Of a DNA stretch of 64,000 nucleotides, positions 1,279 to 49,987 are shown in pieces. Location of the stretch: contig NZ_JACJRT010000004.1 of NCBI RefSeq assembly GCF_014697415.1, positions 1 to 64,000 of the forward strand, in the 5' to 3' direction. Each line of letters opens with the position of its first letter. Position 1 is the stretch's first letter. Below the pieces are notes generated by a model. That model was given only the letters and a program-made list of their open reading frames with translations, had not been told where the DNA came from and searched no databases. Source of the stretch: Cyanobium sp. FACHB-13342. GTDB lineage: Bacteria; Cyanobacteriota; Cyanobacteriia; PCC-6307; Cyanobiaceae. Both the position numbers and the translations under genes were made by a program.

Positions 1279-2859
1279 GTGAGCACCACGAGCGACCACC
1301 GGGTGCTGCTGGTACGGCTGCCCTGCAACCCCATCTTCCCGATCGGCCCCATCTATTTGGCCGATCACCTGCACAAGCAATTCGGGGAGATGCCCCAGCG
1401 CATCCTCGACCTGGCCGCGGTGCCCTTGCTCGATGTGGAGCGGGTGTTGCTCCAGGTGGTGGCGGCGTTCCGCCCCACCCTGCTGGTGTTTTCCTGGCGC
1501 GACATCCAGATCTACGCGCCGGTGGATGGCCGGGGGGGCAATCCCCTGCAGAACTCCTTTGAGGTGTTCTATGCCCGCAACCCCCTGCGACGGCTGCGGG
1601 GGGCCTGGGGCGGTTTGCAGTTGATGGCGTCGTTCTACGGCGAGCTGTGGCGCAATCTGCGGCTGGTGCGTCGGGGGTTGCGCCGGGCCCGCCGCTTCCA
1701 CCCTGAAGCGCGCGCCGTGATCGGCGGCGGGGCGGTGAGCGTGTTCTACGAGCAGCTGGGCCGCAAGCTCCCGAAGGGCACCGTGGTGTCGGTGGGCGAA
1801 GGCGAGCCCCTCCTGGAGAAGCTGATCCGCGGTGACTCCATCGCCGGTGAACGCTGCTTCGTGGTGGGCGAAGCGCCCCGGGCGGGGTTGATCCATGAGC
1901 AGCCGGCGGGCATGGAGAAAACCGCCTGCAACTACGCCTATATCGCTGAGATCTGGCCCCAACTCGACTGGTATCTCGACGGCGGCGACTTCTACGTGGG
2001 CGTGCAGACCAAGCGCGGCTGTCCCCACAACTGCTGCTATTGCGTGTACACGGTGGTGGAGGGCAAGGCGGTGCGGGTGAACCCCGTCGAGGAGGTGATC
2101 GCAGAGATGGGCCAGCTCTATGCCAAGGGGGTGCGCGGCTTCTGGTTCACCGATGCCCAGTTCATCCCCGCGCGCCGCTACATCGAGGATGCCAAGCAGC
2201 TGCTCCGAGCCATCCAGGCCCAGGGCTGGAACGACATCCGCTGGGCCGCCTACATCCGGGCCGACAACCTCGACGCCGAGCTGGCGGAGCTGATGGTGGC
2301 CACCGGCATGGACTACTTCGAGATCGGCATCACCTCCGGCTCCCAGGAGCTCGTGCGAAAGATGCGCATGGGCTACAACCTGCGCACCGTGCTGGAGAAC
2401 TGCCGCCTGCTGGCGCGGGCCGGCTTCCGCGAGCACGTGTCGGTGAACTACTCGTTCAACGTGATCGACGAGCGGCCCGAGACGATCCGCCAGACCGTGG
2501 CCTACCACCGCGAGCTCGAACGCATCTTCGGGGCCGACAAGGTGGAGCCGGCCATCTTCTTCATCGGCCTGCAGCCCCACACCCATCTGGAGCAGTACGG
2601 CTTCGACCAAGGCCTCATCCAGCCCGGTTACAACCCGATGAGCATGTTGCCCTGGACGGCCCGCCAGCTGCTCTGGAACCCTGAGCCCATGGGCAGCACC
2701 TTCGGCCGCATCTGCCTGGAGGCGTTCGAGCGCAACCCCGCCGATTTCGGTCGCACGGTGATGGATCTGCTCGAGCGCGACTACGGATTGGCTCCCCTCG
2801 AGGAGGCGTTGCACGCGCCGGTGGAGGGGCGCAAAGCCCTGGCTACGGCGACCCGTTAG
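1279..2859 (+). CDS. B12-binding-type radical SAM protein (cyanobacterial, light-acclimation family)
   Basis: 526 aa from the GTG at 1279, five bases after cofG. An open frame extends further upstream, but that part overlaps cofG. Residues 1-200 resemble a degenerate cobalamin-binding fold (PCNPIFPIGPIYLADHL, then a VIGGGAVSVF segment). The radical SAM cluster is CPHNCCYC at Cys248, Cys252 and Cys255, followed by a TIM-barrel half with the FEIGITSGSQELVRKM segment typical of B12-dependent members. The substrate is unknown. I recall cyanobacterial homologues named 'photosystem II high light acclimation radical SAM protein', unverified here; the location beside psbA agrees. The 3' end overlaps the convergent CPBP gene by 17 bp. 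Confidence 0.8.
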   Translation: MSTTSDHRVLLVRLPCNPIFPIGPIYLADHLHKQFGEMPQRILDLAAVPLLDVERVLLQVVAAFRPTLLVFSWRDIQIYAPVDGRGGNPLQNSFEVFYARNPLRRLRGAWGGLQLMASFYGELWRNLRLVRRGLRRARRFHPEARAVIGGGAVSVFYEQLGRKLPKGTVVSVGEGEPLLEKLIRGDSIAGERCFVVGEAPRAGLIHEQPAGMEKTACNYAYIAEIWPQLDWYLDGGDFYVGVQTKRGCPHNCCYCVYTVVEGKAVRVNPVEEVIAEMGQLYAKGVRGFWFTDAQFIPARRYIEDAKQLLRAIQAQGWNDIRWAAYIRADNLDAELAELMVATGMDYFEIGITSGSQELVRKMRMGYNLRTVLENCRLLARAGFREHVSVNYSFNVIDERPETIRQTVAYHRELERIFGADKVEPAIFFIGLQPHTHLEQYGFDQGLIQPGYNPMSMLPWTARQLLWNPEPMGSTFGRICLEAFERNPADFGRTVMDLLERDYGLAPLEEALHAPVEGRKALATATR

Positions 2860-3691
2860 CGCCATTCCACCAGCGGCGGCGCACCCAGAGCAGGGCCGCC
2901 AGGCCGATCCAGCCGATCAGGCCGCCGATCGGGTTGATGTCGGCGCCACCGGGCCCCACCCACCAGGCGGGTGCCGCCGGGGAGATTTGCAGCAATCCCT
3001 TCTGCACCAGAAACCAGCCCCCCACCAGGCCGCCGTGGAGGCCGACGGCCCCCCACAGGGAGCCCCCATCGGCGCGGCGCTGCAGGGCCAGCACCAATCC
3101 CAGCAGCACCAGTCCCCCCAACAGGCCTACCGCCTCCAGGCCAGGGGCGCGATACCACGGGTGCAGCAGGGCAAAGATCACGGCCTGCAGGAGCAAGGCC
3201 CGCCTGGGGCCCACCAGCAGGTCCAGTTCGCCCCAGAGCCAGCCGCGAAACAGCAGCTCTTCAGCGAAGCCAACCCCGATCAGCAGCAACAGGCCGTTGA
3301 GGAGCAGGGCGCCATGCACTTCACCCAGCCACTGGGCCTGGCCGGCCAGCAGCAGGGCCCCGGCCACCAGCACCAGCAGGGCCAGGGCCTTGAGCAGGCC
3401 GCGAACGCCGCTGCGGAGAGCGACGGCTGGGGGGACGGCCACGCCCAGCCGCGCCCAGGGGTGGGGCTCTTGCCAGACGCGCCGCAGGCGCATGGGCAGG
3501 CTGACCAGGAGCAACAGCAGCGCCACCACCAGCCCGGCCAGGTCAACCTGGTCAGAGCGCCAGCCAGGGGCCACCAGGGCCAGGGGACGGGACACCAGCC
3601 ATCCAGCGGCATAGAGCAGGGGCACGTACAGCAGGGTGCCCCAGCCATGGGGCCGGATCGCGTGGGGCACCTCGGCTGAGGGCGGAGCCAT
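2843..3691 (-). CDS. CPBP-family intramembrane metalloprotease
   Basis: 282 aa and strongly hydrophobic, with about six to eight predicted membrane helices. It carries the CPBP (Abi) signature: Glu144-Glu145 with Arg149 (FAEELLFRGW), His177 in the FALLHPW motif, and a later GLHGG motif near residue 218. The family includes Rce1-type prenyl-protein proteases; most cyanobacterial members have no known substrate. It is the last gene of a dapL-clpS-CPBP minus-strand cluster, and its ATG (3689-3691) directly abuts the clpS stop codon, so translational coupling is likely. The 3' end overlaps the convergent radical SAM gene. Confidence 0.85.
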   Translation of the reverse strand: MAPPSAEVPHAIRPHGWGTLLYVPLLYAAGWLVSRPLALVAPGWRSDQVDLAGLVVALLLLLVSLPMRLRRVWQEPHPWARLGVAVPPAVALRSGVRGLLKALALLVLVAGALLLAGQAQWLGEVHGALLLNGLLLLIGVGFAEELLFRGWLWGELDLLVGPRRALLLQAVIFALLHPWYRAPGLEAVGLLGGLVLLGLVLALQRRADGGSLWGAVGLHGGLVGGWFLVQKGLLQISPAAPAWWVGPGGADINPIGGLIGWIGLAALLWVRRRWWNGANGSP

Positions 3692-4036
3692 TCAGGTTTC
3701 CGGCTCGAGGCTGCTGCTCAGGCCCTTGGCCTTGAGGGTTTCGCAGTAGAACTCCGCCGGCTCCAGATCGCAGACGATCACCAGGCCCACGCCAGTGTTG
3801 TGGGCCTCCAGCATCACGGCGATCGCGTCCTGCTCGCTGAGGCTGGGCACCACCTGACGCAAGGTGCTCACCACGTATTCCATGGTGTTCACCGGGTCGT
3901 TGTGGAGCAACACCTTGTAGCGGGGAGACGGCTTGCGCACCCGCTCTGGAGCCTTCTCCATCACAGCCGCTCCGCCGCTTTCGCGGCCCGGGCTCTGGCT
4001 GGCGACTGGTTGGGAGGTCATGGCCGCTGGTGTCAT
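3692..4036 (-). CDS. clpS: ATP-dependent Clp protease adaptor ClpS
   Basis: 114 aa from ATG 4036; a second in-frame ATG at 4021 would give 109 aa. The ClpS core is clear: YKVLLHNDPVNTMEYVV (residues 40-56), then an acidic helix with EAHNTGVGLVIVCDLEPAEFY. ClpS hands N-end-rule substrates to the ClpA/ClpC N-domain and blocks other substrates; HNDPVNTMEYV forms the N-degron pocket region. The first 30 or so residues are low-complexity. The gene lies 13 bp after dapL and abuts the CPBP protease start. Upstream in-frame codons reach into dapL but are not needed for the family fold. Confidence 0.92.
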   Translation of the reverse strand: MTPAAMTSQPVASQSPGRESGGAAVMEKAPERVRKPSPRYKVLLHNDPVNTMEYVVSTLRQVVPSLSEQDAIAVMLEAHNTGVGLVIVCDLEPAEFYCETLKAKGLSSSLEPET

Positions 4037-4049
4037 GACAACGGTTCCA

Positions 4050-5276
4050 TTAAAGGGCGCGGATGCGCCGCATGGCTTCTTCCACGTTCTCGCGACTGTT
4101 GAAGGCCGAGAGGCGGAAGTAGCCCTCGCCGGCGGCGCCGAAACCGCTGCCGGGGGTGCCCACCACATTCGCTTTGCTGAGCAGACGATCGAAAAATCCC
4201 CAGGAATCCAGGCCCTCCGGCGTTTTCAGCCACACGTAGGGGGCCTGCTCGCCGCCATACACCTGCAAGCCGGCCGCCTGCAGCTCCCGGCGGATGATCG
4301 CGGCGTTCTCCATGTAGAAGCCAATTAGCGCCTTCACCTGGGCCTTGCCCTCGGGCGAATACACGGCTTCGGCCCCGCGCTGCACGATGTAGCTGACGCC
4401 GTTGAATTTGGTGCACTGGCGCCGGTTCCACAGGCCCCAGAGCTCCACGCGCTCGCCGTTGGCCGCCGTGCCCATCAGGCCGCGGGGCACCACGGTGAGG
4501 GCGCAGCGGGTGCCGGTGAATCCGGCGTTCTTGGAGAAGGAGCGGAACTCGATCGCGCACTCGCGGGCGCCCTCGATCTCATAGATCGAGTGGGGCAGGG
4601 AGGGATCCTGAATGAAGGCCTCGTAGGCGGCGTCGAACAGGATCAGGGCGCCATGGGCGCGGGCGTAGTCCACCCAGGCCTGGAGCTGCGCCTTCGTTGC
4701 CACCGCGCCGGTGGGGTTGTTGGGGAAGCACAGGTAGATCAGATCCACCGGTGCGTTGGGGATTTCCGCTGTGAAACCGTTTTCGGCGTTGATGGGCAGG
4801 TAGGTGAGGCCGCCGTACTGGCCGGCGTCATCGGCGTCGCCGGTGCGCCCCGCCATCACGTTGCTGTCCACGTACACCGGATACACCGGGTCGGTCACGG
4901 CGATGCGGTTGCCCTCGCCCAGGATGTCGAGAATGTTGGAGCTGTCGCACTTCGAGCCGTCCGACACGAAGATCTCCTCGGCCGTGATCTGGCAGCCGCG
5001 GGACTGGAAGTCGTGCTGGGCAATCGCTTCGCGCAGCCAGAGATAGCCCTGCTCGGGCCCGTAGCCGTGGAAGCCTTCACGGGTGCCCATCTCGTCGATG
5101 GCGGCCTTCATGGCGGTGCGGCAGGCCTCCGGCAGCGGCTCGGTGACATCACCGATGCCCAGACGGATGATCGGTGCACTGGGGTTGGCTTCGCTGAAGG
5201 CCTTCACCCGCCTGCCGATCTCCGGGAACAGGTAGCCCGCCTTGAGCTTGAGGTAGTTGCCGTTGACCTGGGCCAT
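4050..5276 (-). CDS. dapL: LL-diaminopimelate aminotransferase
   Basis: 408 aa, the usual DapL length, starting [20 protein letters not shown]. DapL is a class I/II PLP aminotransferase that converts tetrahydrodipicolinate directly to LL-diaminopimelate with glutamate as donor. This is the one-step lysine/peptidoglycan route used by cyanobacteria, plants and chlamydiae. Visible motifs are [10 protein letters not shown], the [10 protein letters not shown] cofactor loop, DAAYE, and [13 protein letters not shown] with the PLP lysine at about Lys249. It is first in a minus-strand cluster with clpS. The start ATG at 5274-5276 is about 95 bp from the divergent radical SAM gene. Confidence 0.96.
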
Positions 5277-5372
5277 GGAAGAAGAATGTCGCGGACGGAA
5301 GGGAATGGCGGGATTGTCCTATGGCGGGTGGCGCTGCATACGATCAAGGCAGCTCCCCAGCCGCCCGCATCT

Positions 5373-8063
5373 GTGACTGTCGTCCCCGTCGAGGCGCCCC
5401 AAGATGGTCCAGTGGCGGCCCCAGTGGATTTCCCCACCCTCGTCGACCTGGAGATCAGCAAGCCGGCCCGCTACCTGGGCAATGAGCTGGGGGTGCGTGA
5501 GCGGGATTGGGCGGCCGACTGGCCAGCTGCCGGCGTGCGCTGGGCGCTCACCTACCCCGAGGTCTACGAGGTGGGCGCCAGCAACAGCGGCCACATCATT
5601 CTCTATTCGATCCTCAACAGCCTCCCCGGCCAGCTGTGCGACCGCAGCTACCTGCCGGCGCCGGATTTGGCGGCTCGCCTGCGGGAGCGCGGGGTGCCCC
5701 TGTTTGCGGTGGAGAGCCGCCGGCCCCTGGCCGCCTTCGACATCCTGGGCTTCTCGCTCAGCTACGAGCTGGGCGGCACCAACATCCTCGAGATGCTGGA
5801 GCTGGCTGGCATTCCGATCCATGCTGCCGACCGCGGCGACCTGCCCCTCAGCCACCCGGCGGCGCCGCCGCTGATCTTCGCCGGAGGGCCCACCGCCACC
5901 AGCAACCCGGAGCCCTTCGCCGCCTTCTTCGACTTCATCGCCCTGGGCGACGGCGAGGAGTTGTTGCCGGAGATCGGTCTGGTGGTGGCCGAGGCTCGCG
6001 CTGCCGGTCTGACACGTCTCGAGCTGTTGCGTGACCTGGCCCAAGTGCCAGGGGTCTATGTGCCCAGCTTGTATGCCCCAGGTGCCGATGGGGTGGCGCT
6101 CGAGCCGCTGGAGCCCGGTCTTCCGGCGCGGATTCAGCGCCGCACGGCCACGCCGATGCCCCATTACGCCATGGGGCTCGTGCCCCACATCGAAACGGTG
6201 CACGACCGGCTCACGGTGGAGATCCGCCGCGGCTGCACCCGCGGCTGCCGCTTCTGCCAGCCCGGCATGCTCACCCGCCCCGCCCGCGACGTCGAGCCCG
6301 AGGCGGTGGTGGAGGCGGTGGAAGAGGGCATGCGGCGCACGGGCTACAGCGATTTCTCCCTGCTGTCGCTGAGCTGTTCCGACTACCTGGCCCTGCCAGC
6401 GGTGGGCGTTGAGCTGCGCAACCGCTTAGCAGACCAGAACGTGAGCCTCACCCTGCCCAGCCAGCGGGTGGACCGCTTCGATCAAAACATTGCCCACATC
6501 CTCGGGGGAACGAGAAAGGGCGGACTCACCTTCGCCCCCGAGGCCGGCAGCCAGCGCCTGCGCGACATCGTCAACAAGGGGCTCACTGATGCCGAGCTGC
6601 TGGCCGGGATCCGCATGGCGATGGAGAACGGCTACCGCAAGGTGAAGCTCTATTTCATGATCGGCCTGCCGGGGGAAACCGACGCCGACGTGCTCGGCAT
6701 CGCCGACACCTGTCAGGCCCTGCAGCGGCAGTGTGCCGATCTGGGCCGGTTGGAGCTGAATCTGACGATCAGCAACTTCACCCCCAAGCCCCACACGCCG
6801 TTCCAGTGGCACAGCGTCAGCACCGCGGAGTTTCGGCGGCGCCAGGAGTTGTTGCGCCGGGCCCTGCGTCAGCTGCGCGGCCTCAAGACCAACTTCACCG
6901 ACGTGCGCCTCTCGGCGGTGGAAGATTTTGTTGGCCGCGGCGACCGGCGTGTCTCGGCGGTGATTGAGGCGGCCTGGCGGGCTGGGGCGGGTCTCGATGC
7001 CTGGTTTGAGTCGGCGGAGCGCAGCTATGCCGCCTGGACTGGTGCCATCGAGGCGGCGGGTCTGGGGGGGCGCTACCGCCAGTTGGAGCTCGGCGCCTGG
7101 AGCGCGGCTGAGGCGATGGAGGCGGCGGATCTGGAGGGCTTCTGCCGCCAGAGCCTGCCCTGGGACCACATCGATTCGGGCCTCGACAAGCGCTGGCTGG
7201 CGGAGGATCTCCAGCGGGCCCTGGCCGCGGCCGTTGTCCCCGACTGTTCTTTTGAGGGCTGCAGCAGCTGCGGCGTGTGTGGTCCGGAGCTCGGCCACAA
7301 CGTGGTGATTCCGCCGCCGGCGATTCCGGTCGCCTTGCCCCAGCGCGCCCCGGCCAGTGAGCGGGTGGATCGGCTGCGGATCGGTTTCACCAAATCGGGC
7401 TCCCTGGCCCTGATCAGCCACCTCGACACCCTGCGGATGTTGGAGCGGGCCCTGCGTCGCTCCGGGCTGCCGGTGAGCTTCACCGGCGGCTTCCACCCCC
7501 TGCCGCGGCTGCAGCTGGCCCTGCCCTTGCCCCTGGGGGTGGAGGGTTATGGCGAGTGGCTCGACCTGGAGTTCACCGAGGAGGTGGATCCGGCCCAGGT
7601 GCGGGAGCGGCTGCAACCCCAGCTGCCCCCTGAATTCCAGCTGCTTTCGATGGCCCGGGTCCCGGTGTTCGGGGTGAGCCTGTCCCAGGAGCTGGAGTCT
7701 GCCCAGTGGACCTTCCTGCTCCAGCCCCAGGGGGGAGAGCCGGTGGAGCCCGAGCAGTGGCAGGGGGCGCGCGCCGCCCTGCTGGCGGCTGAGACCTTGG
7801 TCTGGCATGACACGGATAAAAAAGGTCGTCCCCGCAGTCGGGATTGCCGGCCCTTTCTGCTGGATCTGCAGATGCCCGCCGCGTCAGATGGCACCCAGCC
7901 GTGCAGCTTGAGGGCTGCGATCGATGCCTCCGGGCGCAGTCTGCGGCCTGAGCAGGTGCAGCACTGGATCGCTGAGCGCCTGGGCCAATCCCTCGTGTTG
8001 AGAGCTCTGCGCCGCCAGGCCCTTGTGCTGAAGCCAGTGCTAATATCCATCCAAGGCGAATAG
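5373..8063 (+). CDS. Radical SAM protein (TIGR03960-like) fused to a DUF2344/TIGR03936 domain
   Basis: 896 aa from GTG 5373; other in-frame GTGs (5412, 5424) are possible, and the open frame runs on upstream through dapL. Residues 60-200 form a B12-binding-like segment. The radical SAM motif CTRGCRFC supplies Cys288, Cys292 and Cys295, followed by GLTFAPEAGSQRLRDIVNKG. A cysteine cluster (CSFEGCSSCGVCG) near residue 630 precedes the DUF2344 domain (from about residue 664, LRIGFTKSGSLALISHLDTLR). Many bacteria encode the two domains together next to rne/rng, as here; a tRNA or rRNA modification role is often supposed but unproven. The terminal codons overlap a TAATAT element that could belong to the rne promoter. 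Confidence 0.82.
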   Translation: MTVVPVEAPQDGPVAAPVDFPTLVDLEISKPARYLGNELGVRERDWAADWPAAGVRWALTYPEVYEVGASNSGHIILYSILNSLPGQLCDRSYLPAPDLAARLRERGVPLFAVESRRPLAAFDILGFSLSYELGGTNILEMLELAGIPIHAADRGDLPLSHPAAPPLIFAGGPTATSNPEPFAAFFDFIALGDGEELLPEIGLVVAEARAAGLTRLELLRDLAQVPGVYVPSLYAPGADGVALEPLEPGLPARIQRRTATPMPHYAMGLVPHIETVHDRLTVEIRRGCTRGCRFCQPGMLTRPARDVEPEAVVEAVEEGMRRTGYSDFSLLSLSCSDYLALPAVGVELRNRLADQNVSLTLPSQRVDRFDQNIAHILGGTRKGGLTFAPEAGSQRLRDIVNKGLTDAELLAGIRMAMENGYRKVKLYFMIGLPGETDADVLGIADTCQALQRQCADLGRLELNLTISNFTPKPHTPFQWHSVSTAEFRRRQELLRRALRQLRGLKTNFTDVRLSAVEDFVGRGDRRVSAVIEAAWRAGAGLDAWFESAERSYAAWTGAIEAAGLGGRYRQLELGAWSAAEAMEAADLEGFCRQSLPWDHIDSGLDKRWLAEDLQRALAAAVVPDCSFEGCSSCGVCGPELGHNVVIPPPAIPVALPQRAPASERVDRLRIGFTKSGSLALISHLDTLRMLERALRRSGLPVSFTGGFHPLPRLQLALPLPLGVEGYGEWLDLEFTEEVDPAQVRERLQPQLPPEFQLLSMARVPVFGVSLSQELESAQWTFLLQPQGGEPVEPEQWQGARAALLAAETLVWHDTDKKGRPRSRDCRPFLLDLQMPAASDGTQPCSLRAAIDASGRSLRPEQVQHWIAERLGQSLVLRALRRQALVLKPVLISIQGE

Positions 8064-19566: not shown

Positions 19567-21324
19567 TCAGGGCACCAGCCCCACCCCGTTGTGCACGGAG
19601 CCGGCCACGCCCCGACCCTTCACCTGCAGGGAGCCGCCCAGCACCAGTCCGGTGGAGCTGCCGCCGTCCAGGTTCAGGGCATCACGGAGCCCAAGCTGTT
19701 GCAGCAACAGGGCCGTTTCGCCGAGGGACGGGCCGCTGTCCTGGATGCCCTCGAGGGTGATCAGCCACACCTGGCGGTCATCACGGGCCAGCACGGTGCG
19801 GGGAGCCCCCTGGCTGAGGAAGGAGGCGCTGAAGTTTTCGGCAGCACCGTTCAGCACGATCTGTCCCTCTTGCAGCAACAGGGGCCCACCGCCGATCACA
19901 TGGGTGGCCAGTCCGAGGTCGTTGCTGGGCCGGCTGTCGAGCTGGAGCCGGTCGCCGGGCTCCCAGGGCAACTCCGTGCCGCCCCGGCCCACCAGCAACT
20001 GGTCATCGCCCCGCAGTGGCACCCCGGCCTCCAGCGCGTCAGAGCTGAGGCGTTGGCTCACCCAGCCCGCCCGCAGGAGCAGGCCCGTTTCCGAGCCGCT
20101 CAGGGCCCGGTAGGCGGGCCCCCATTCGGCGGTGTACCGGCTGATGCCCCGTTGCACATATCCGCTGTTGAGGGCGTTGATCGGCAGTCGCTGGCCATGG
20201 GGGCCCGCGATCGACTCCACCAGTTGCAGACGGCCGAACCGGGGCAAGCTGCGCTCGCTCCAGGCCGCCACGCCCCGGTTGAGAATGGGGCCGGACAGCC
20301 AGCGGCCGTTGGCTTTCAGGGCGCCCAGGGGCAGGCGGCGCACCCGGTTGAAGAAGCCGCCGTTGATGGCCACCCAGGCCTGCTCTTGGTTGGCGAGCTG
20401 CACCAGCGAACTGAGCCCCTCCATTCCCCCTGGCCGGGCTAGGGGCTTGAGCTGCAGGGAGGCGGTGCGGGGGTCGACGCGGATGGCGTTGATTCGTACC
20501 CCCTGGCGGCTCAGACGGTCCCATTGGATCTCCCTGCCGAGCAGGGCCTGTACGCGCGGATCGATGGGGATGGCCCCACCGTCGCTGGGGAGCGGGCCGT
20601 CCGCGGGCCACTCGATCACCAGCCGTGGCGGAGCGCCCAGGCTGAATGTCCGCGTCAGCTTCCCTGCTGCTGGTTGGAGTCGCAGCCTGCCGCTGCTCTG
20701 GAGGCCCCCAAGGCCCAGGGCCTTGAGTTGGGCCTGTTGGTCGTCGCGGCTGGTGAGGTCCAGCACCAGCCCCCCGCTGTCGCCCTCCACCAGGGCCGGG
20801 CCGCTGAGGTCGAGCACGACGCGCCGCAGGTTGCCCGGGGTGGCGCTGCGAACCTGCAGCAGCTCGGGCCGGCCCAGGTTGAGGCTGAGCTGGCCGCCCT
20901 CCTGGCGCACCGTGAAGCCGATGTTCCGGAACAGCCCGGCCACCTCGATGGCCACCTCGTCCTCGAGGCTCCGCTGGGCAGTTGCCGGCACCTTCAGCCC
21001 CTGGCCAAACCACTCGAGGTCGAGGGAGCCATCGCTCAGGCTGCGGCTGGTGACCCCCAGTTGGTTGTCGAGCAGCTCGAGGGGGATCCAGAGTTGCTGG
21101 GGTGCTTCACCGGCACGCCCAACCCACAACCAGCGGGCTTTCTGGACCCTGCCGTTGATGCTGACGCTGCTCCCCTGGCGCTCCAGGCCCGTTGGTTGTT
21201 GGGTGGGGACCGGCGGCGGGGGCGGCGGCGGCAACGCCAGGGCCAGGCCGGCTGGGGGCAGAAGCAGGGACAGCAGGCAAGGCGTCAGCAGCAGGCTGGG
21301 CCTGAGGGAACCCGCAGTCGCCAT
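19567..21324 (-). CDS. Exported phosphodiester glycosidase-family (NAGPA/DUF2233) protein
   Basis: 585 aa. A signal peptide (residues 1-30, cut likely after LALA) is followed by a proline run and an AMIN/copper-amine-oxidase-like N-terminal half. The C-terminal half is the NAGPA domain, with AWVAINGGFFNR, then VWLITLEG and ALNLDGGSSTGLVLGG, motifs that supply the family's catalytic Asp/Gly pocket. Related proteins hydrolyse phosphodiester-linked sugars in envelope polymers; the natural substrate here is unknown. It ends 44 bp from the Fe-S carrier-like gene and diverges from glutamate synthase. Confidence 0.82.
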   Translation of the reverse strand: MATAGSLRPSLLLTPCLLSLLLPPAGLALALPPPPPPPVPTQQPTGLERQGSSVSINGRVQKARWLWVGRAGEAPQQLWIPLELLDNQLGVTSRSLSDGSLDLEWFGQGLKVPATAQRSLEDEVAIEVAGLFRNIGFTVRQEGGQLSLNLGRPELLQVRSATPGNLRRVVLDLSGPALVEGDSGGLVLDLTSRDDQQAQLKALGLGGLQSSGRLRLQPAAGKLTRTFSLGAPPRLVIEWPADGPLPSDGGAIPIDPRVQALLGREIQWDRLSRQGVRINAIRVDPRTASLQLKPLARPGGMEGLSSLVQLANQEQAWVAINGGFFNRVRRLPLGALKANGRWLSGPILNRGVAAWSERSLPRFGRLQLVESIAGPHGQRLPINALNSGYVQRGISRYTAEWGPAYRALSGSETGLLLRAGWVSQRLSSDALEAGVPLRGDDQLLVGRGGTELPWEPGDRLQLDSRPSNDLGLATHVIGGGPLLLQEGQIVLNGAAENFSASFLSQGAPRTVLARDDRQVWLITLEGIQDSGPSLGETALLLQQLGLRDALNLDGGSSTGLVLGGSLQVKGRGVAGSVHNGVGLVP

Positions 21325-21400
21325 CGCCAGCCCAGCCGACAGCGCCCAACGCTAGCGGTGGGTGGCTGCGCTAGAGGCCGGGTTTGGGGGTGTGAATCCC

Positions 21401-21497
21401 TAGGATCAATCGTTCTGCTGTGGTCGCCCCCCGTCGGGGTTCTGCCGCAGCAGAACGTCTGGATCCACTGTCAGATCCACTGTCAGATCAACTGCCG
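21401..21497 (+). promoter_or_regulatory. Glutamate synthase promoter/leader: -10 box, hairpin and three 12-nt tandem repeats
   Basis: TAGGAT at 21401-21406 fits a -10 element and would place the transcript start near 21412. A perfect 10-bp inverted repeat begins there: CGTTCTGCTG (21411-21420) with CAGCAGAACG (21448-21457), enclosing a CCCC/GGGG inner stem. Then come GATCCACTGTCA at 21462-21473, an exact copy at 21474-21485, and a diverged third copy GATCAACTGCCG at 21486-21497, ending 14 nt before the ATG. No NtcA site (GTAN8TAC) and no glutamine-riboswitch core (GGAAGTAGG) was found. Confidence 0.55.
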
Positions 21498-21511
21498 GAC
21501 CTTTTCGGGTT

Positions 21512-24500
21512 ATGCCTCAATCCCCTCGCCCTGTTTGGCCCCATTGCGACAGCCCCGCTCCGGCGGCGGTGGCGGGCGAGAAGGATGCCTGTGGTGTGGG
21601 CTTTCTGGCCAGCCTCAAGGGGGTTTCGAGCCACTGGTTGCTGCAGCAGGCCCTGCGCGGCCTCGATTGCATGGAGCATCGCGGTGGCTGCGGCGGCGAC
21701 GGCGACTCGGGTGATGGCGCCGGGGTGCTGTGTGGCATCCCCTGGAGCTATCTGGAGGCGGTGTGGCCCGAAGCGGCGGCCGCCCAAGGCAGCTCCCGGG
21801 GCCTGGGCATGGTGTTCCTGCCGGCCGACGCCAGCAAGCGCGACCAGGCCAAGGCTTTCTGCGCCGAAGAGGCCACCAAGCTGGGGCTACGGAGCCTGGG
21901 TTGGCGCGCCGTCCCGCTGAACCCTGCGGTGTTGGGTCCCCTCGCCCTGGGGACCGCCCCCGCCATTGAGCAGTGGCTGGTGGCGGCTGATCTGGCCGGA
22001 GATGCCCTCGAATCCCTGCTGTTCCGTCTGCGGCGCCGCTGCGGCGACCGGGCTCGGGAAGCCTGGGGGCCCGGTCCTGGAGATCTCTATTTCGCCTCCC
22101 TGAGCAGCCGCACCGTTGTGTACAAGGGCATGGTGCGCTCGGAGGTGCTCTCCGCCTTCTATGGCGATCTGCGGGACGAGCGCTTTGCCGTGAGCTTCGC
22201 CGTTTACCACCGCCGGTTCAGCACCAACACCCTGCCCCGCTGGCCCCTGGCCCAGCCCATGCGGTTGCTGGGCCACAACGGCGAGATCAACACCCTGCTG
22301 GGCAACCTCAACTGGGCCCGGGCTTCCGAGGCCAATCTCGATGCGGTGTGGGGGGAGGCCGCCGCCGAGCTGAAGCCGGTGGTGAATGCTGCCTTCAGTG
22401 ATTCGGCCAACCTCGACGCCACCCTGGAGCTGCTGGTGCGCAGCGGCCGGCCCATCACCGAGAGCCTGCTCACTCTTGTGCCCGAGGCCTTCCGCGACCA
22501 GCCCGAGCTGGTGGGCAAGCCGGAGATCCAGGCCTTCTACGAATATTCCGCCTGCACCCAGGAGCCCTGGGATGGCCCGGCCCTGCTGGTGTTCGCCGAT
22601 GGCCGCAGCGTTGGGGCCACCCTGGATCGCAATGGCCTGCGCCCAGCCCGCTACTGCATCACCAGCGACGGCTATGTGGTGATGGGCAGCGAAACCGGCG
22701 TGGTGGAGCTCGAGGAGAGCCGCATCATCGAGAAGGGCCGCCTGGGCCCTGGCCAGATGCTGGCGGTGGACCTGGAGCAGGGCCGCCTGCTGCGTAACTG
22801 GGATGTGAAGCAGGAGGTGGCGGCCCGTCACCCCTATGGCGCCTGGTTGGCGGAGCATCGCCGCAGCCTGGCTCCCCAGCCCTGGACCCAGGAGCGCCAG
22901 CTGGGTGATCTGGAGCTGCTGCAGCAGCAGACGGCTTTTGGCTTCACGGCCGAAGACTTCGAGCTGGTGATCGAGGACATGGCCGGTGCGGCCAAGGAGC
23001 CCACCTACTGCATGGGCGACGACATTCCCCTGGCAGTGCTCTCCGATAAACCGCATCTGCTCTACGACTACTTCAAGCAGCGCTTCGCCCAGGTCACCAA
23101 CCCGCCGATCGATCCGCTGCGCGAAAAGCTGGTGATGAGCCTGGAGATGCACCTGGGCAAGCGGGGGTCGCCCTTGAAGCCCGAGGCGGCTTCGGCGGCG
23201 GTGCTGCATCTGGCCAGCCCGATCCTCAACGAGGCGGAGCTGGCGGCGCTGGCCCAGCAGGGCCTGCCCACCCTCAAGCTCTCCACCCTGATGGCCATCA
23301 CCGATGGGCCTGGGGGCCTGGCGGCTGCCGTGGAGCGCCTCAAGGCAGAGGCCGAGGCAGCCGTGCGCGCCGGCACCCAGATCCTGGTGCTCAGTGATCG
23401 CGGCGGTTCCAGCGGCGGCATTGCGGCCACCACCACCACCATCCCGCCGCTGTTGGCGGTTGGTGCGGTGCACCACCACCTGCTCAACCTGGGGCTGCGG
23501 CTGCAGGCGTCCTTGGTGGTGGACACGGCCCAGTGCTGGAGTACCCATCATCTGGCCTGCCTGATTGGCTACGGCGCCAGCGCCGTTTGCCCCTGGCTCA
23601 CGTGGGAAACCACCCGCCACTGGCTGGCGCACCCCCGGGTGCAGAAACTGATTGAAACCGGCAAGTTGCCGGCCCTCACGCCCGATCAGGCCCAGGCCAA
23701 CGTGCGCAAGGCCCTGGAAGACGGCCTGCGCAAGATCCTCTCCAAGATTGGGATCTCGCTACTGGCCAGCTACCACGGTGCCCAGATCTTCGAGGCCATC
23801 GGCCTCGGTGCCGACCTGATCGAGCTGGCCTTCAAGGGCACCACCAGTCGGGTGGCGGGCCTGAGCCTGGCTGAATTGGCCAGCGAAACCCTCAGCTTCC
23901 ATGCCAAGGCCTTCCCCGAGTTGAACCGCACCAAGCTCGAATTCATGGGCTTTGTGCAGTACCGCACCGGCGGCGAGTACCACCTCAACAGCCCGGAGAT
24001 GGCCAAGGCCCTGCACGCGGCGGTCAAGGCGGGCCCCGGCTACGACCACTTCTCCACCTACAAGACCCTGCTGGAAAACCGGCCGGTCACGGCCCTGCGC
24101 GACCTGCTGGAGCTCAAGCCCGCGCCGGCACCTCTGCCGATCGAGCAGGTGGAGAGCGTGGAGAGCATCTGCAGCCGTTTCTGCACCGGTGGCATGAGCC
24201 TGGGCGCCCTCTCGCGGGAGGCCCACGAGGTGTTGGCCATCGCCATGAACCGCATCGGCGGCAAGAGCAACAGCGGCGAGGGCGGCGAGGATCCGGCCCG
24301 CTTTGGGGTGCTCAGCGATGTGGACGATGACGGCCACTCCGCGACCCTGCCCAGCCTGAACGGCCTGCGCAACGGCGACACCGCCTGCTCGGCGATCAAG
24401 CAGATCGCCTCGGGCCGTTTCGGGGTGACCCCCGAGTATCTGCGCAGCGGCAAGCAGCTGGAGATCAAGGTGGCCCAGGGGGCCAAGCCCGGTGAGGGCG

Positions 24501-26110
24501 GCCAGCTGCCTGGCCCGAAGGTGGATCCCTACATCGCCTGGCTGCGCAACAGCAAGGCCGGTGTGGCGCTGATTTCACCGCCACCCCACCACGACATCTA
24601 TTCCATCGAGGACCTGGCCCAGCTGATCCACGACCTGCACCAGGTGCATCCCGCCGCCAAGGTGAGCGTGAAGCTGGTGGCTGAGATCGGCATCGGCACC
24701 ATCGCCGCCGGTGTGGCCAAGGCCAACGCCGATGTGATTCAGATCTCCGGCCACGACGGTGGCACCGGCGCCTCCCCCCTGAGCTCGATCAAGCACGCCG
24801 GCAGCCCGTGGGAGCTGGGCCTCACCGAGGTGCACCGCTCGCTGCTGGAGAACGGTCTGCGGGATCGGGTGTTGCTGCGGGCCGACGGCGGCCTCAAGAC
24901 CGGCTGGGATGTGGTGATCGCCGCCCTGCTGGGTGCGGAGGAATACGGCTTTGGCTCGGTGGCGATGATCGCCGAGGGCTGCATCATGGCCCGGGTTTGC
25001 CACACCAATAACTGCCCGGTGGGCGTGGCCACCCAAAAGGAGAACCTGCGCAAGCGCTTCCCCGGCGTGCCCGAACACGTGGTGAATTTCTTCCTGTTCG
25101 TGGCGGAGGAGGTGCGCCAGCTGCTCAGCGTGCTGGGGGTGGCCCGTCTGGAGGATTTGATCGGCCGCAGTGAGTTCCTCCAGCCTCGGGCCGTGGCCCT
25201 GGCTAAAACCCAGGCCTTGGATCTCTCCTGCCTGATGGATCCGATTCCGCAGGCGGCTGATCGCCGTTGGCTGCAGCACGAGGCCCAGGCCCATGGCAAT
25301 GGTCCAATCCTGGAAGATCAGCTGCTGGCTGATGCCGAGGTGATGGCCGCGATCGAAGGCCACGGCCGGGTGCGCCGCACCCTGGCGATCGTCAACACCG
25401 ACCGCAGTGTGGGCGCCCGCCTCTCCGGCGAGATCGCAGCGCGCCACGGCAATAAGGGCTTCCAGGGTCAGCTCGACCTCACCCTGGAGGGCGCGGCCGG
25501 CCAGAGCTTCGGGGCCTTCGTGCTCCAGGGCATGAACGTGCGCCTTGTGGGTGAAGCCAACGACTACGTCGGCAAGGGCCTCAATGGGGGGCGCCTCACC
25601 GTGGTCCCCCCTGCCGGCGGCAACGACCCCGGCAGCCAGGTGATCCTCGGCAACACCTGTCTCTACGGCGCCACCGGCGGCGAGTTGTTTGCCCTGGGCC
25701 GGGCCGGGGAGCGCTTCGGCGTGCGCAACAGCGGCGCCCGCACCGTGGTGGAGGGTGCCGGCGACCACTGCTGCGAGTACATGACGGGTGGCGTGGTGGT
25801 GGTGCTGGGCAGCACCGGCCGCAACGTGGCCGCCGGCATGACCGGTGGCGTGGCCTTCATCCTCGATGAGAGCGGTGGTCTGCGGGAGCGGGTAAATCCC
25901 GAGATCGTGGCCATTTGCTCGCTCACCACCCCCGAGCAGGAGGCCCTGCTCAAGCCCCTGCTGCAGGCCCATCTCGACGCCACCGGCAGCGCCAAGGCCG
26001 CCGCGATCCTGGCCGACTGGAGCACCTGGAAGGCCCAGTTCAAGCTGCTGGTGCCCCCCAGCGAAAAGGCCACCGTGGGCCTGGCCGAGCGGGAGGCGGT
26101 GGTGGCTTGA
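21512..26110 (+). CDS. gltS: Ferredoxin-dependent glutamate synthase
   Basis: 1532 aa. A 26-residue propeptide precedes Cys27 (EKDACGVGFLAS), the N-terminal nucleophile of the glutaminase domain. The central domain follows; then the FMN/synthase domain has GDTACSAIKQIASGRFGVTP, the ferredoxin-loop region seen in the Fd enzyme. GCIMARVCHTNNCPVG holds the [3Fe-4S] cysteines (CX5CX4C). The C-terminal GXGXG beta-helix ends the protein. It makes two glutamates from glutamine and 2-oxoglutarate using reduced ferredoxin, working with glutamine synthetase. No small NADPH subunit (GltD) is adjacent, which supports the Fd type. The stop is 22 bp from convergent lipA. Confidence 0.95.
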   Translation: MPQSPRPVWPHCDSPAPAAVAGEKDACGVGFLASLKGVSSHWLLQQALRGLDCMEHRGGCGGDGDSGDGAGVLCGIPWSYLEAVWPEAAAAQGSSRGLGMVFLPADASKRDQAKAFCAEEATKLGLRSLGWRAVPLNPAVLGPLALGTAPAIEQWLVAADLAGDALESLLFRLRRRCGDRAREAWGPGPGDLYFASLSSRTVVYKGMVRSEVLSAFYGDLRDERFAVSFAVYHRRFSTNTLPRWPLAQPMRLLGHNGEINTLLGNLNWARASEANLDAVWGEAAAELKPVVNAAFSDSANLDATLELLVRSGRPITESLLTLVPEAFRDQPELVGKPEIQAFYEYSACTQEPWDGPALLVFADGRSVGATLDRNGLRPARYCITSDGYVVMGSETGVVELEESRIIEKGRLGPGQMLAVDLEQGRLLRNWDVKQEVAARHPYGAWLAEHRRSLAPQPWTQERQLGDLELLQQQTAFGFTAEDFELVIEDMAGAAKEPTYCMGDDIPLAVLSDKPHLLYDYFKQRFAQVTNPPIDPLREKLVMSLEMHLGKRGSPLKPEAASAAVLHLASPILNEAELAALAQQGLPTLKLSTLMAITDGPGGLAAAVERLKAEAEAAVRAGTQILVLSDRGGSSGGIAATTTTIPPLLAVGAVHHHLLNLGLRLQASLVVDTAQCWSTHHLACLIGYGASAVCPWLTWETTRHWLAHPRVQKLIETGKLPALTPDQAQANVRKALEDGLRKILSKIGISLLASYHGAQIFEAIGLGADLIELAFKGTTSRVAGLSLAELASETLSFHAKAFPELNRTKLEFMGFVQYRTGGEYHLNSPEMAKALHAAVKAGPGYDHFSTYKTLLENRPVTALRDLLELKPAPAPLPIEQVESVESICSRFCTGGMSLGALSREAHEVLAIAMNRIGGKSNSGEGGEDPARFGVLSDVDDDGHSATLPSLNGLRNGDTACSAIKQIASGRFGVTPEYLRSGKQLEIKVAQGAKPGEGGQLPGPKVDPYIAWLRNSKAGVALISPPPHHDIYSIEDLAQLIHDLHQVHPAAKVSVKLVAEIGIGTIAAGVAKANADVIQISGHDGGTGASPLSSIKHAGSPWELGLTEVHRSLLENGLRDRVLLRADGGLKTGWDVVIAALLGAEEYGFGSVAMIAEGCIMARVCHTNNCPVGVATQKENLRKRFPGVPEHVVNFFLFVAEEVRQLLSVLGVARLEDLIGRSEFLQPRAVALAKTQALDLSCLMDPIPQAADRRWLQHEAQAHGNGPILEDQLLADAEVMAAIEGHGRVRRTLAIVNTDRSVGARLSGEIAARHGNKGFQGQLDLTLEGAAGQSFGAFVLQGMNVRLVGEANDYVGKGLNGGRLTVVPPAGGNDPGSQVILGNTCLYGATGGELFALGRAGERFGVRNSGARTVVEGAGDHCCEYMTGGVVVVLGSTGRNVAAGMTGGVAFILDESGGLRERVNPEIVAICSLTTPEQEALLKPLLQAHLDATGSAKAAAILADWSTWKAQFKLLVPPSEKATVGLAEREAVVA

Positions 26111-30655: not shown

Positions 30656-30686
30656 CTGCAGCCCAAAAGTCCTCGGAAGCGGCCTC

Positions 30687-30692
30687 TATACT
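30687..30692 (+). promoter_or_regulatory. Candidate -10 element of the psaAB promoter
   Basis: TATACT matches the sigma-70 -10 consensus at five of six positions and would start a leader of about 195 nt. At the proper spacing upstream the sequence is CAAAAG, not a -35 consensus. This would suit an activator- or RpaB-dependent promoter, but no full HLR1 repeat is visible. Confidence 0.4.
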
Positions 30693-30777
30693 TCCGCCAG
30701 CGGTCCCCTATCTGGGGCCCCAAGCTCCAGTTGTGGCAAGCGGTTTCACGGTTTCGTGGACTTCTTTCCCGCTGGTG

Positions 30778-30819
30778 CCCATGGGCGGTTCGGACGCTTC
30801 GGCGTCCGGCTCCCATGGG
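30778..30819 (+). promoter_or_regulatory. Extended leader hairpin with UUCG tetraloop upstream of psaA
   Basis: The outer stem CCCATGGG (30778-30785) pairs with CCCATGGG (30812-30819). The inner stem CGGACGC (30791-30797) pairs with GCGTCCG (30802-30808) around the loop TTCG. UUCG loops closed by C-G are exceptionally stable, and here the closing pair is C-G. The structure ends 75 nt before the psaA ATG, with no T run after it, so it is not a terminator. Confidence 0.6.
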
Positions 30820-30894
30820 GCCCACTGGTAGGCCCTCCGGCCTGCCTCAGGGGTGGACCCACCACCTCGACCCCGTCCCTCGAGGAACGTCTCG

Positions 30895-33198
30895 ATGACC
30901 ATCAGCCCACCAGAGCGTGGGGAAAAGGCGAAGGCCATGGTCGACCGGAACCCCGTTCCGGCCACCTTCGAACTGTTCGGCAAGCCCGGCCATTTCGATC
31001 GCAGCCTTGCCAAGGGTCCCAAAACCACCACCTGGGTTTGGAACCTCCACGCCAATGCTCACGACTTCGACAGCCACACGAGTGACCTCGAAGAGGTCTC
31101 TCGCAAGATCTTTTCGGCTCACTTCGGCCACCTGGCCGTCATCTTTATCTGGCTGAGCGGCGCCTTCTTCCATGGAGCGCGCTTCTCCAACTACACCGGT
31201 TGGTTGACCGATCCCCTGCACGTCAAGCCTTCGGCGCAGGTGGTTTGGCCGATTTTTGGCCAGGAAATCCTCAATGGCGATGTGGGTGCCGGCTTCCACG
31301 GCATTCAGATCACCTCCGGTCTCTTCCACGTGTGGAGGGCCTGGGGCATCACCAACGAAACCCAGCTGCTGGCCCTGGCCATCGGCGCCCTGGTGATGGC
31401 CGGCCTGATGCTCAATGCGGGCGTCTTCCACTACCACAAGGCAGCCCCCAAGCTCGAGTGGTTCCAGAACGTTGAGTCGATGCTCAACCACCATCTGGCC
31501 GGTCTGCTTGGTCTGGGCTCCCTCTCCTGGACAGGACACCTTCTGCACGTGTCCCTGCCCACCAACGCGCTGATGGAGGCCATCGACGCCGGCAAGCCGC
31601 TGGCGCTCAACGGCAAGACCATCGCCACTTACGCCGACATCCCCCTGCCCCACGAGTTCCTGAATCAGGACGTGATTGCCCAGCTGTTCCCCGGTTTCGG
31701 GGCGGGCATCTCAGCCTTCTTCACGGGCAACTGGGCGGCCTACAGCGATTTCCTCACCTTCAAGGGTGGGCTGAATCCCGTGACCGGCAGCCTCTGGATG
31801 ACCGACATCGCCCATCACCATCTGGCGATTGCGGTGCTGTTCATCGTGGCCGGCCACATGTACCGCACCAACTGGGGCATCGGCCACAGCATCAAGGAGA
31901 TCCTCGAGGGTCAGAAGGGTGATCCCCTGCTGTTCCCCGCTCCCAACGGTCATGACGGACTCTTCGAGTTCATGACCACCAGCTGGCACGCCCAACTGGC
32001 TGTAAACCTGGCTCTGCTGGGTTCGCTGACCATCATCGTGGCCCAGCACATGTATGCGATGCCTCCGTATCCCTACATCGGCATCGACTACCCCACCCAG
32101 CTGTCGATCTTCACCCACCACACCTGGATCGGTGGCTTCTTGATCGTCGGTGCCGGCGCCCACGCCGCCATCGCGATGATCCGCGACTACGACCCCGCCA
32201 AGCATGTGGACAACGTGCTTGACCGGGTGCTCAAGGCCCGCGATGCCCTGATCAGCCACCTCAACTGGGTGTGCATCTGGCTGGGCTTCCACAGCTTCGG
32301 CCTCTACATCCACAACGACACCATGCGTGCCCTGGGTCGCCCCCAGGACATGTTCAGCGACTCCGCCATTGCCCTGAAGCCCGTCTTCGCGCAGTGGATT
32401 CAGGGTCTCCACGCCGCCGCCGCCGGCAGCACCGCCCCCAACGCCCTTGCCGGCGTGAGTGAGGTGTTCAATGGCGCTGTGGTGGCCGTGGGAGGGAAGG
32501 TGGCTGCCGGTCCGATCCCCCTGGGAACGGCCGACTTCATGGTCCACCACATCCACGCCTTCACGATCCACGTCACCGTGCTGATCCTGCTGAAGGGTGT
32601 GCTGTATGCACGGAGCTCCCGCCTCGTTCCTGACAAGGCGAACCTGGGCTTCCGTTTCCCCTGCGACGGCCCCGGCCGTGGCGGCACCTGCCAGGTGTCG
32701 GCTTGGGACCACGTGTTCCTCGGCCTGTTCTGGATGTACAACTCCCTGTCGATCGTCATCTTCCACTTCTCCTGGAAGATGCAGAGCGACGTGTGGGGCA
32801 CCGTCAACGCTGACGGCAGTGTCCAGCACATCACCAACGGCAACTTCGCCCAAAGCGCCATCACCATCAATGGTTGGCTGCGGGACTTCCTCTGGGCCCA
32901 GGCCGCACAGGTGATCAACAGCTACGGCTCGAGCTCCAGTGCTTACGGTCTGATGTTCCTGGGAGCCCACTTCATCTGGGCCTTCAGCCTGATGTTCCTG
33001 TTCAGCGGCCGCGGCTACTGGCAGGAGCTGATCGAGTCCATCGTCTGGGCTCACAACAAGCTGAGGGTTGCCCCCGCCATCCAACCGCGGGCGCTCTCCA
33101 TCACCCAGGGCCGTGCCGTCGGTGTCGCTCACTATCTGTTGGGCGGTATCGCAACGACCTGGTCCTTCTTCCTGGCCCGCATCATTGCGGTCGGCTGA
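30895..33198 (+). CDS. psaA: Photosystem I P700 chlorophyll a apoprotein A1
   Basis: 767 aa from ATG 30895 ([20 protein letters not shown]); the frame is open 14 codons further upstream, but this start matches the family. It is an eleven-helix reaction-centre subunit with many HH/HN chlorophyll ligands. The FX cluster loop [12 protein letters not shown] lies near residues 588-598, and the C-terminus is [25 protein letters not shown]. It forms the P700 heterodimer with PsaB and binds the electron carriers A0, A1 and FX. psaB follows after 19 bp, as a two-gene operon ending at a strong terminator. Confidence 0.98.
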
Positions 33199-48565: not shown

Positions 48566-49885
48566 TCACTGCCGCACCATGCCCTCGTAGCGCTGGGAGA
48601 TCACGTAGGTCTGCACCTGCTTGGCGGTGTCGATTGCCACCCCCACCAGGATCAGCAGGGAGGTGGCGCCCAAGCCCTGGAAGGTGCGCACCTGGGTGGC
48701 ACCCTCTACGGCGGAGGGGATGATCGCCACGGCGCCGAGGAAGACGCCGCCCAACAGGGTGAGCCTGTTCTGCACGCCGCTGAGATAGTTCGCCGTAGCC
48801 GAGCCTGGGCGAACTCCTGGGATCGCCACGCCACTGCGTTTGAGGTTGGTGGCAATGTCCACCGGATTGACGGTGAGCGAGGCGTAGAAGAAGCCGAAGC
48901 CGCAGATCAGGGCAAAGAACACCAGGGCGTAGAGCCAGGGGGTGCTGCTGTTGGGGTTGAGGTAGCCCGCCAACTGGATCAGCCAGGGGCTGCGGGTGAG
49001 GTTGGCGATCGTGAGCGGCAGGAACACCACCGCCGAGGCGAAAATGATCGGCATCACGCCGCCGGCGTTGAGCTTGAGCGGCAGGTAGCTCTGGCGTGCG
49101 GAGAGCATGCCCGCCCCGCCCACTTGGCGCTTGGCGCTCACGATCGGGATCCGGCGGTTGCCCTCCTGCACGAAGATGATTCCCACGATCGTGAGCAGGA
49201 AGACCAGCACCAGCACCACGATGCCGCCGACGGTGCTGCGGTCTCCGCTCTGGGCCAGCTCGATGGTGGAGCCCAGCGCCTTGGGCAAGGTGGCCACGAT
49301 GTTCACGAAGATCACCAGGGAGGCCCCTTGGCCGATGCCCCGCTCGGTGATCACCTCACTGATCCACATCACCACCATGGAGCCGGTCACCAGGGCCAGG
49401 GCTGTCTGGATGACGAACACAGGCTCCGAGAGTCCTTCGGTGGCGTACTGCCGCAGGATCAGGGCAAACACCAGGCTCTGCAGGATGCCCCAGCCCAGGG
49501 CGACATAACGGGTGATCTGGGCGATCTTGCGGCGGCCGGCCTCGCCTTCGTTCTTCTGGAGGTCTTCCAGCTGGGGCAGGGCTGCGGTGAGCAGCTGGAT
49601 GATGATCGAGGCGTTGATGAAGGGCAGGATCCCGAGGGCGAAAATCCCCAGGGTGGAGAGGCCGCCTCCGGTGAAGATGTCGAGGAAGCCGATCAGCTGG
49701 CCGCCACGGGAGAGGAACTCCTGGAAGGCCACCCGGTCGATGCCGGGCATCGGGATGTAGATGCCAAGCCGCACCAGCAGCAGCAGGCCGAGGGTGGTGA
49801 GCACCCGGTCGCGCAGGCCCTTCGACTGGATCAGTTGGCTGAGAATTTCCCCAGCACTGGGGTTGCGACCCCGGCTAACAAGCAT
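48566..49885 (-). CDS. secY: Preprotein translocase subunit SecY
   Basis: 439 aa, ten membrane helices, starting MLVSRGRNPSAGEILSQLIQSKGLRDRVL. Family segments are LGIYIPMPGID, GILPFINASIIIQLL (plug/lateral-gate region) and RRIPI...KRQVGG (cytoplasmic loop 5). It forms the SecYEG channel; in cyanobacteria one SecY serves both plasma and thylakoid membranes. It lies 102 bp after rplO, with a terminator-like hairpin in the gap. Confidence 0.97.
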   Translation of the reverse strand: MLVSRGRNPSAGEILSQLIQSKGLRDRVLTTLGLLLLVRLGIYIPMPGIDRVAFQEFLSRGGQLIGFLDIFTGGGLSTLGIFALGILPFINASIIIQLLTAALPQLEDLQKNEGEAGRRKIAQITRYVALGWGILQSLVFALILRQYATEGLSEPVFVIQTALALVTGSMVVMWISEVITERGIGQGASLVIFVNIVATLPKALGSTIELAQSGDRSTVGGIVVLVLVFLLTIVGIIFVQEGNRRIPIVSAKRQVGGAGMLSARQSYLPLKLNAGGVMPIIFASAVVFLPLTIANLTRSPWLIQLAGYLNPNSSTPWLYALVFFALICGFGFFYASLTVNPVDIATNLKRSGVAIPGVRPGSATANYLSGVQNRLTLLGGVFLGAVAIIPSAVEGATQVRTFQGLGATSLLILVGVAIDTAKQVQTYVISQRYEGMVRQ

Positions 49886-49905
49886 GGCGGCGTGTGGTGG
49901 GCATG

Positions 49906-49955
49906 AAAAAACCGCCCGCCGGACTCTGGGAACGATCCCCGAATCCGCTGGACGG
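49906..49955 (-). terminator. Terminator-like hairpin between rplO and secY
   Basis: On the minus strand CCGTCCAGCGGATTC pairs with GAGTCCGGCGGGCGG (13 of 15 pairs, two of them G-U) around a loop that itself holds GGGG/CCC, followed by six T residues. The T run ends 20 nt before the secY ATG. It looks like a full intrinsic terminator placed inside an operon, which suggests attenuation or partial termination. Confidence 0.8.
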
Positions 49956-49987
49956 CTCAGACCTTAGGGCGGAGGGCCCCAAGGGGA

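Follow-up and report, generated by a model that had tools for sequence, protein, structure and literature searches.

A stem-loop at the predicted 5′ end of the glsF message, probably kept by paired changes in some picocyanobacteria

What kind of element stands before glsF in Cyanobium sp. FACHB-13342, and does it act in RNA, act in DNA or do little at all? The gene (gltS; positions 21512–26110, plus strand, of the 64,000-nt stretch of contig NZ_JACJRT010000004.1 analysed here, “the window”) encodes the large subunit of glutamate synthase (1532 aa; NCBIfam NF008730, 1694.9 bits), which we take to be ferredoxin-dependent from the gene’s name in picocyanobacteria. Its leader occupies part of the intergenic stretch 21325–21511, between glsF and a divergent minus-strand ORF (19567–21324) without an NCBIfam match. 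The original prediction for this DNA proposed a structured leader with tandem repeats, either an undescribed nitrogen-responsive leader or a protein-binding repeat array. The comparisons below suggest that glsF mRNA probably begins with a stem-loop that is kept by paired changes in some picocyanobacteria. Decay that depends on the 5′ end is poorly known in these organisms, and a covarying 5′ stem-loop at glsF offers a simple, testable case of how they keep a long message alive.

We compared 86 glsF leaders, drawn from 15 genomes of the genus, 15 others and 56 among the highest-scoring of 362 matching family genomes, so that the sample leans to close relatives. A putative −10 element of the glsF promoter, TAGGAT (21401–21406, plus strand), lies where the original prediction had placed a −10-like box, and 60 of the 86 leaders have the same hexamer 35–225 nt ahead of the start (mean of shuffles, 1.9). 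On the minus strand, TAGCGT (21349–21354) is by its position the probable −10 box of the divergent gene; its plus-strand reading, ACGCTA, recurs in 38/86 leaders (mean of shuffles, 2.8). These two elements face away from each other about 50 nt apart and, each recurring in relatives, suggest a conserved divergent promoter pair. The spacing after TAGGAT places the predicted 5′ end of the glsF transcript at the foot of a hairpin, whose stem begins at the fifth base after this hexamer; were transcription to start with a purine, at G21412, the RNA would lack the first base of the stem. An ORF opening with GTG at 21420, upstream of the glsF ATG, extends into glsF in a different reading frame.

The claim that known nitrogen-control elements are missing from this leader was borne out. 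NtcA sites have the form GTA-N8-TAC, and no such motif with one mismatch or fewer occurs in 20148–22109, which sets aside an NtcA-activated promoter. The glutamine riboswitch (RF01739) has no match in the window at the gathering threshold and none in 21300–21700 at E up to 5, and the genome’s one match lies elsewhere; it was therefore rejected as the glsF leader. A consensus scan found no terminator hairpin with a T-run in 21200–21700, which likewise sets aside a transcription attenuator. Within the glsF leader, Rfam 15 returned chance-level matches alone, far below gathering, and in 20 relatives’ leaders (of the 86) it returned none at E up to 0.5, as expected of the “undescribed” leader first proposed. 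Titles and abstract openings among the matches listed, mostly without subscription papers, hold no description of this glsF leader. Two known cyanobacterial leader RNAs invite comparison: the glutamine riboswitch (glnA RNA), which the available part of one article reports before nitrogen genes including glutamate synthase (PMC2864571), and the psaA RNA (RF01752). Neither matches the glsF leader; the window carries a full-length psaA RNA elsewhere (30685–30898, 114.5 bits).

Some observations lie away from glsF. The genome’s one glutamine riboswitch match (contig C17, 82862–82925; 2862–2925 in extracted locus L222) precedes a 37-aa ORF, which is followed by a terminator-like hairpin (region 2709–2822 of L222) and then by an ORF that we take to be class II aldolase-like, an arrangement resembling the described layout of glutamine riboswitch plus short peptide. 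Matches to RF01739 occurred in three of nine relatives searched, on contigs other than that of glsF. On the minus strand of the window (49885–49987), between ORFs resembling rplO and secY, a TAAGGT −10-like element is followed by a strong hairpin with a T-run; the scanned segment lies 72 nt before the secY start, and the hairpin may be a terminator or a start-proximal leader hairpin.

The stem-loop before glsF spans 21411–21457 (plus strand) by fold and covariation. Its predicted fold comprises an outer stem of 14 bp (21411–21424/21444–21457), an inner stem of 5 bp (21426–21430/21436–21440) and a 5-nt loop; the outer stem contains the perfect 10-bp inverted repeat of the original prediction (21411–21420/21448–21457), and the inner stem that it had described is the one just given. 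The 47 nt fold at −33.5 kcal/mol (z −6.64), which none of 200 shuffles equalled, and the leader deserves to be called structured. Set against 101 upstream segments of the same genome (taken from 420,869 of 2,365,942 nt, with genes called by our own codon-usage script), the hairpin’s best 50-nt window ranks second by z and fourth by energy and is thus unusual but not unique. The part common to relatives, which is the span of our hairpin model R1, runs from 21416 to 21451 (plus strand); the outermost pairs occur, among the leaders compared, only in the window and in genome G008.

Within the genus, the glsF start is present in 15 of 16 genomes, and ten of these 15 leaders carry a hairpin at the window’s position. 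The five that do not are 48 nt (G004, G015) or 28–34 nt (G003, G009, G010) long, predicted leader lengths overall running from 28 to about 197 nt. Folding is better than in shuffles at p ≤ 0.05 in only three of the ten carriers (G000, G008, G011) and is weak in others despite the hairpin (G013, z −0.04; G012, z +0.43); extreme stability is therefore not conserved in the genus.

Model searches delimit where the hairpin occurs. In the 16 genus genomes, each with about 1,900 to 5,500 candidates of which 150 were scored, R1 gave matches at E < 0.01 at glsF alone, eleven in ten genomes; the second match in G007, on contig C20, is that genome’s glsF leader again, truncated at the contig end and therefore probably an assembly duplicate. 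Each of these sequences either belongs to the model or duplicates one of its members, so that the matches count against further copies and not for independent membership. Their confinement to glsF among the candidates scored, together with the single DNA match of the glsF leader in its own genome, led us to reject a mobile or repeated palindrome. A second model, R2, built from ten hairpins without those of the window and G008, ranked G008 first of 93 matches (29.1 bits, E 0.003) and missed the window hairpin, which came 66th of the 93 (14.1 bits, E 6.4). At best, then, the window hairpin is a divergent member, linked with the others through its position and through G008. On 58 leader loci outside the genus, R1 recovered its own four members (E < 0.001); beyond these it gave a single new match at E 0.03 (L174) and ten others between E 0.18 and 0.85, and a homologous hairpin is thus supported only in the genus and in genera g54 and g82.

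Do these hairpins change as a pairing RNA would? Twelve distinct selected hairpins—eight from the genus (G000, G005, G006, G008, G011, G012, G013, G014) and four from g54 and g82 (G232, G248, G174, G123)—were aligned with MAFFT from their sequences only; the hairpins of G007 and G001, identical to those of G011 and G006, were omitted. The figures are indicative, since we hand-trimmed the hairpins and picked them for looking alike, and since the members are related. Across a 14-pair stem, pairing holds in 87.1% of 163 cells, eight of the 14 pairs have changed on both sides (19 cells), and covariation scores 0.452, shuffles averaging 0.215 ± 0.028; none of the 500 shuffles reached the observed value on any of the five measures. 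When the partners were slid by one to three columns, pairing fell to 31–53% and the scores to 0.096–0.147. Removing the window and G008 left seven of 14 pairs doubly changed (14 cells), a result that shuffles reached in 0/500 cases for the score, 2/500 for pair number and 48/500 for pair types. RNAalifold, given a ten-sequence alignment, predicted 12 pairs unaided, 11 of them those of the stem; our alignments A2, A3 and A4 hold 10, 12 and 10 hairpins, with G232 partly misaligned in all three. The covariation that the original prediction had named as a check is thus found in these selected glsF leaders, and the data support the hairpin as an RNA element.

The same alignment indicates which strand folds and what the loop may contribute. 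G-U cells outnumber A-C cells by 27 to 8 (binomial p 0.002; cells not independent), and as folding of the opposite strand would swap these counts, it is the plus strand, that of the glsF mRNA, that folds. Loops read cUNCGg in six of the 12 hairpins and cUGUGg in two more, which suggests that the loops were selected to be stable and not to present a binding sequence; among the compared hairpins we see no unpaired core that is conserved, and the commonest loop is a plain stability tetraloop. In the window, the z-score, the covariation and the G-U excess together describe a stable stem-loop of the RNA strand; in most relatives it is weaker.

A tendency toward structure at the 5′ end extends beyond the homologous hairpin. 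In 76 leaders from 24 genera—ten of the 86 having been dropped because the pattern used found no −10—the 50-nt window at the predicted start was more structured than each of the other five windows compared (mean z −0.86, against −0.19 to +0.11), and z fell below −1.64 in 16/76 leaders there against 3 to 8 of 76 in other windows. The −10 pattern is loose (77/86 leaders match; mean of shuffles, 13.6), so that some of the predicted start points may be wrong. Genus means average −0.61 and are negative in 17 of the 24 genera, differing from zero by a Wilcoxon test (p 0.008; p 0.015 when genus g1 is removed); compared with the upstream window, the genus-level excess falls short of significance (p 0.14). 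As a control, made imperfect by being mostly coding sequence, the divergent gene’s leader gave a mean z of 0.06 (2/49), with 23 of 72 leaders unusable. Different genera seem to use different hairpins at the 5′ end, g19 being an example (six leaders, mean z −3.12), and a need for a structured 5′ end fits these data better than a need for a given sequence, as a trend only.

What would such a stem-loop do? We think it most likely, at a probability of about one half, that the 5′-terminal stem-loop protects the long glsF mRNA from 5′-end-dependent decay, a reading inferred from the comparisons above and from the literature on 5′ decay, 5′ hairpins and cyanobacterial RNases. Specifically, a stable stem-loop would tie up the 5′ end of the message and so slow nucleases that depend on that end (RNase E, RNase J); slower attack would allow a 4.6-kb message, whose decay would start at the 5′ end, to last longer, while the stretch from hairpin to ATG would be left largely unstructured for ribosome loading. 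In Prochlorococcus MED4, according to the available part of one study, glsF is the longest gene (4.6 kb) and large transcripts decay 5′ to 3′ (PMC2897979). Elsewhere, a 5′ hairpin can stabilize mRNA, including long downstream regions, and impede conversion of the 5′ end, but the rpsO and lacZ mRNAs gain no stability from a paired 5′ end, which counts against the explanation (available part of PMC3997798). Cyanobacteria possess both RNase E and RNase J; against the explanation, the accessible text of the same source reports that close RppH homologues are absent from them (PMC10989914). Several results given above also weigh against it: the five genus leaders that have no such hairpin, the small number of carriers (three of ten) that fold better than shuffles, the failure of R2 to recover the window hairpin and the non-significant genus-level excess over the upstream window.

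The nearest known counterparts are the stem-loops of ompA, papA and aprE (PMC3997798, in part), which likewise put a stable stem-loop at or near the 5′ end, a position that is predicted in our case. As in that type, the glsF hairpin is followed by a largely unstructured spacer, and what relatives keep is pairing rather than sequence. The differences are that stabilization of the mRNA is known for those messages and is proposed for glsF, whose transcript start is a predicted one, and that the nuclease set of cyanobacteria is another one, with RNase J and no close RppH homologue (PMC10989914, in part).

Some of the evidence would suit a humbler account, in which a clade-limited hairpin of little function is kept or remade by chance while leader length is free to vary. 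We consider this unlikely, though not far-fetched: the wide range of leader lengths (28 to about 197 nt), the absence of the hairpin from five of the 15 genus leaders, the weak folding of several carriers and the failure of R2 to recover the window hairpin all agree with it, but chance retention sits poorly with double compensating changes at eight of 14 pairs, unmatched in 500 shuffles, and with the trend to 5′ structure in other genera.

Somewhat less probable still is a cis-regulatory RNA, in which a protein, a small RNA or a metabolite binds the hairpin and tunes glsF to nitrogen or redox state. Covariation with and without the window and G008, strong matches only at glsF among the candidates scored, the nitrogen-assimilation gene downstream and the conserved block at the start codon (below) are what such an RNA might show; against it, the loop varies and an unpaired core is not apparent, there is neither a terminator nor a second structure beyond chance, one third of the genus leaders (5/15) do without the hairpin, and the genome’s glutamine riboswitch is elsewhere. 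A narrower version, in which the hairpin would be the constant part of an undescribed class of cis-acting RNA that tunes the lifetime of glsF mRNA to nitrogen or redox state by means of a protein or small RNA able to recognize the bulged stem or the 5′ end, strikes us as doubtful.

Equally doubtful is control of translation, with the hairpin or repeats setting ribosome access or holding a standby site. Conservation of the start-codon block in the genus and a weak 4-bp hairpin predicted beside the ATG speak for it, but that hairpin shows no excess over chance, 54 nt separate the end of the stem-loop from the glsF ATG, and the sequence after the stem-loop (21458–21515) is no more structured than chance (z −0.09). 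Nor does the last part of the leader tend to fold in relatives: in a first structure comparison, for which 63 of 72 leaders were usable, the last 55 nt had a mean z of +0.34. The gltD (SRC-18-1) motif, another candidate leader RNA, likewise precedes a glutamate synthase gene, and in the available description it is followed by a hairpin that seems to occlude the ribosome-binding site (PMC8632094); by that description it differs from the glsF leader, where the hairpin by the ATG is weak and at chance level.

Least probable is a DNA operator, a palindrome or 12-nt array to which a transcription factor would bind shortly after the start site. The perfect inverted repeat and the phased 12-nt units of the window would suit it, but the G-U excess over A-C, the arms that change in sequence while pairing is kept and the variable number of 12-nt units among close relatives all speak against it.

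Those units, the most eye-catching part of the leader, prove to be its least conserved part. There are three at 21462–21497 (plus strand): two identical copies of GATCCACTGTCA (21462–21473 and 21474–21485) and a diverged third, GATCAACTGCCG (21486–21497), scored by TRF as 2.8 copies with 95% match. In layout they are as the original prediction had them, ending 14 nt before the ATG at 21512. A functional repeat array, on the contrary, did not withstand the comparison of repeat number and was rejected, since the count is not kept among close relatives: three in the window, two in G008, one plus a shortened one in G011 and G007, and one in G006, G001, G005, G013 and G012. Being so variable (3, 2 or about 1), the units are most likely the product of recent replication slippage of one ancestral unit, which, under a protective stem-loop, would have expanded in a spacer tolerant of length.

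Conservation in this part of the leader lies around the start codon. A block at 21480–21518 (plus strand) is matched in ten of 14 other glsF-bearing genus genomes, at 89–97% identity in nine and over the whole query in G008. To the eye, its portion before and over the ATG (21487–21514; CTGCCGGACC..CGGGTTATG) is echoed in genus g54, and an ACC/GGT pairing next to the ATG is possible within it. GATC-containing tandem repeats also occur in the glsF leader of G290, from another genus (g6), where units of 19 nt stand in 2.4 copies (191–235 of locus L188).
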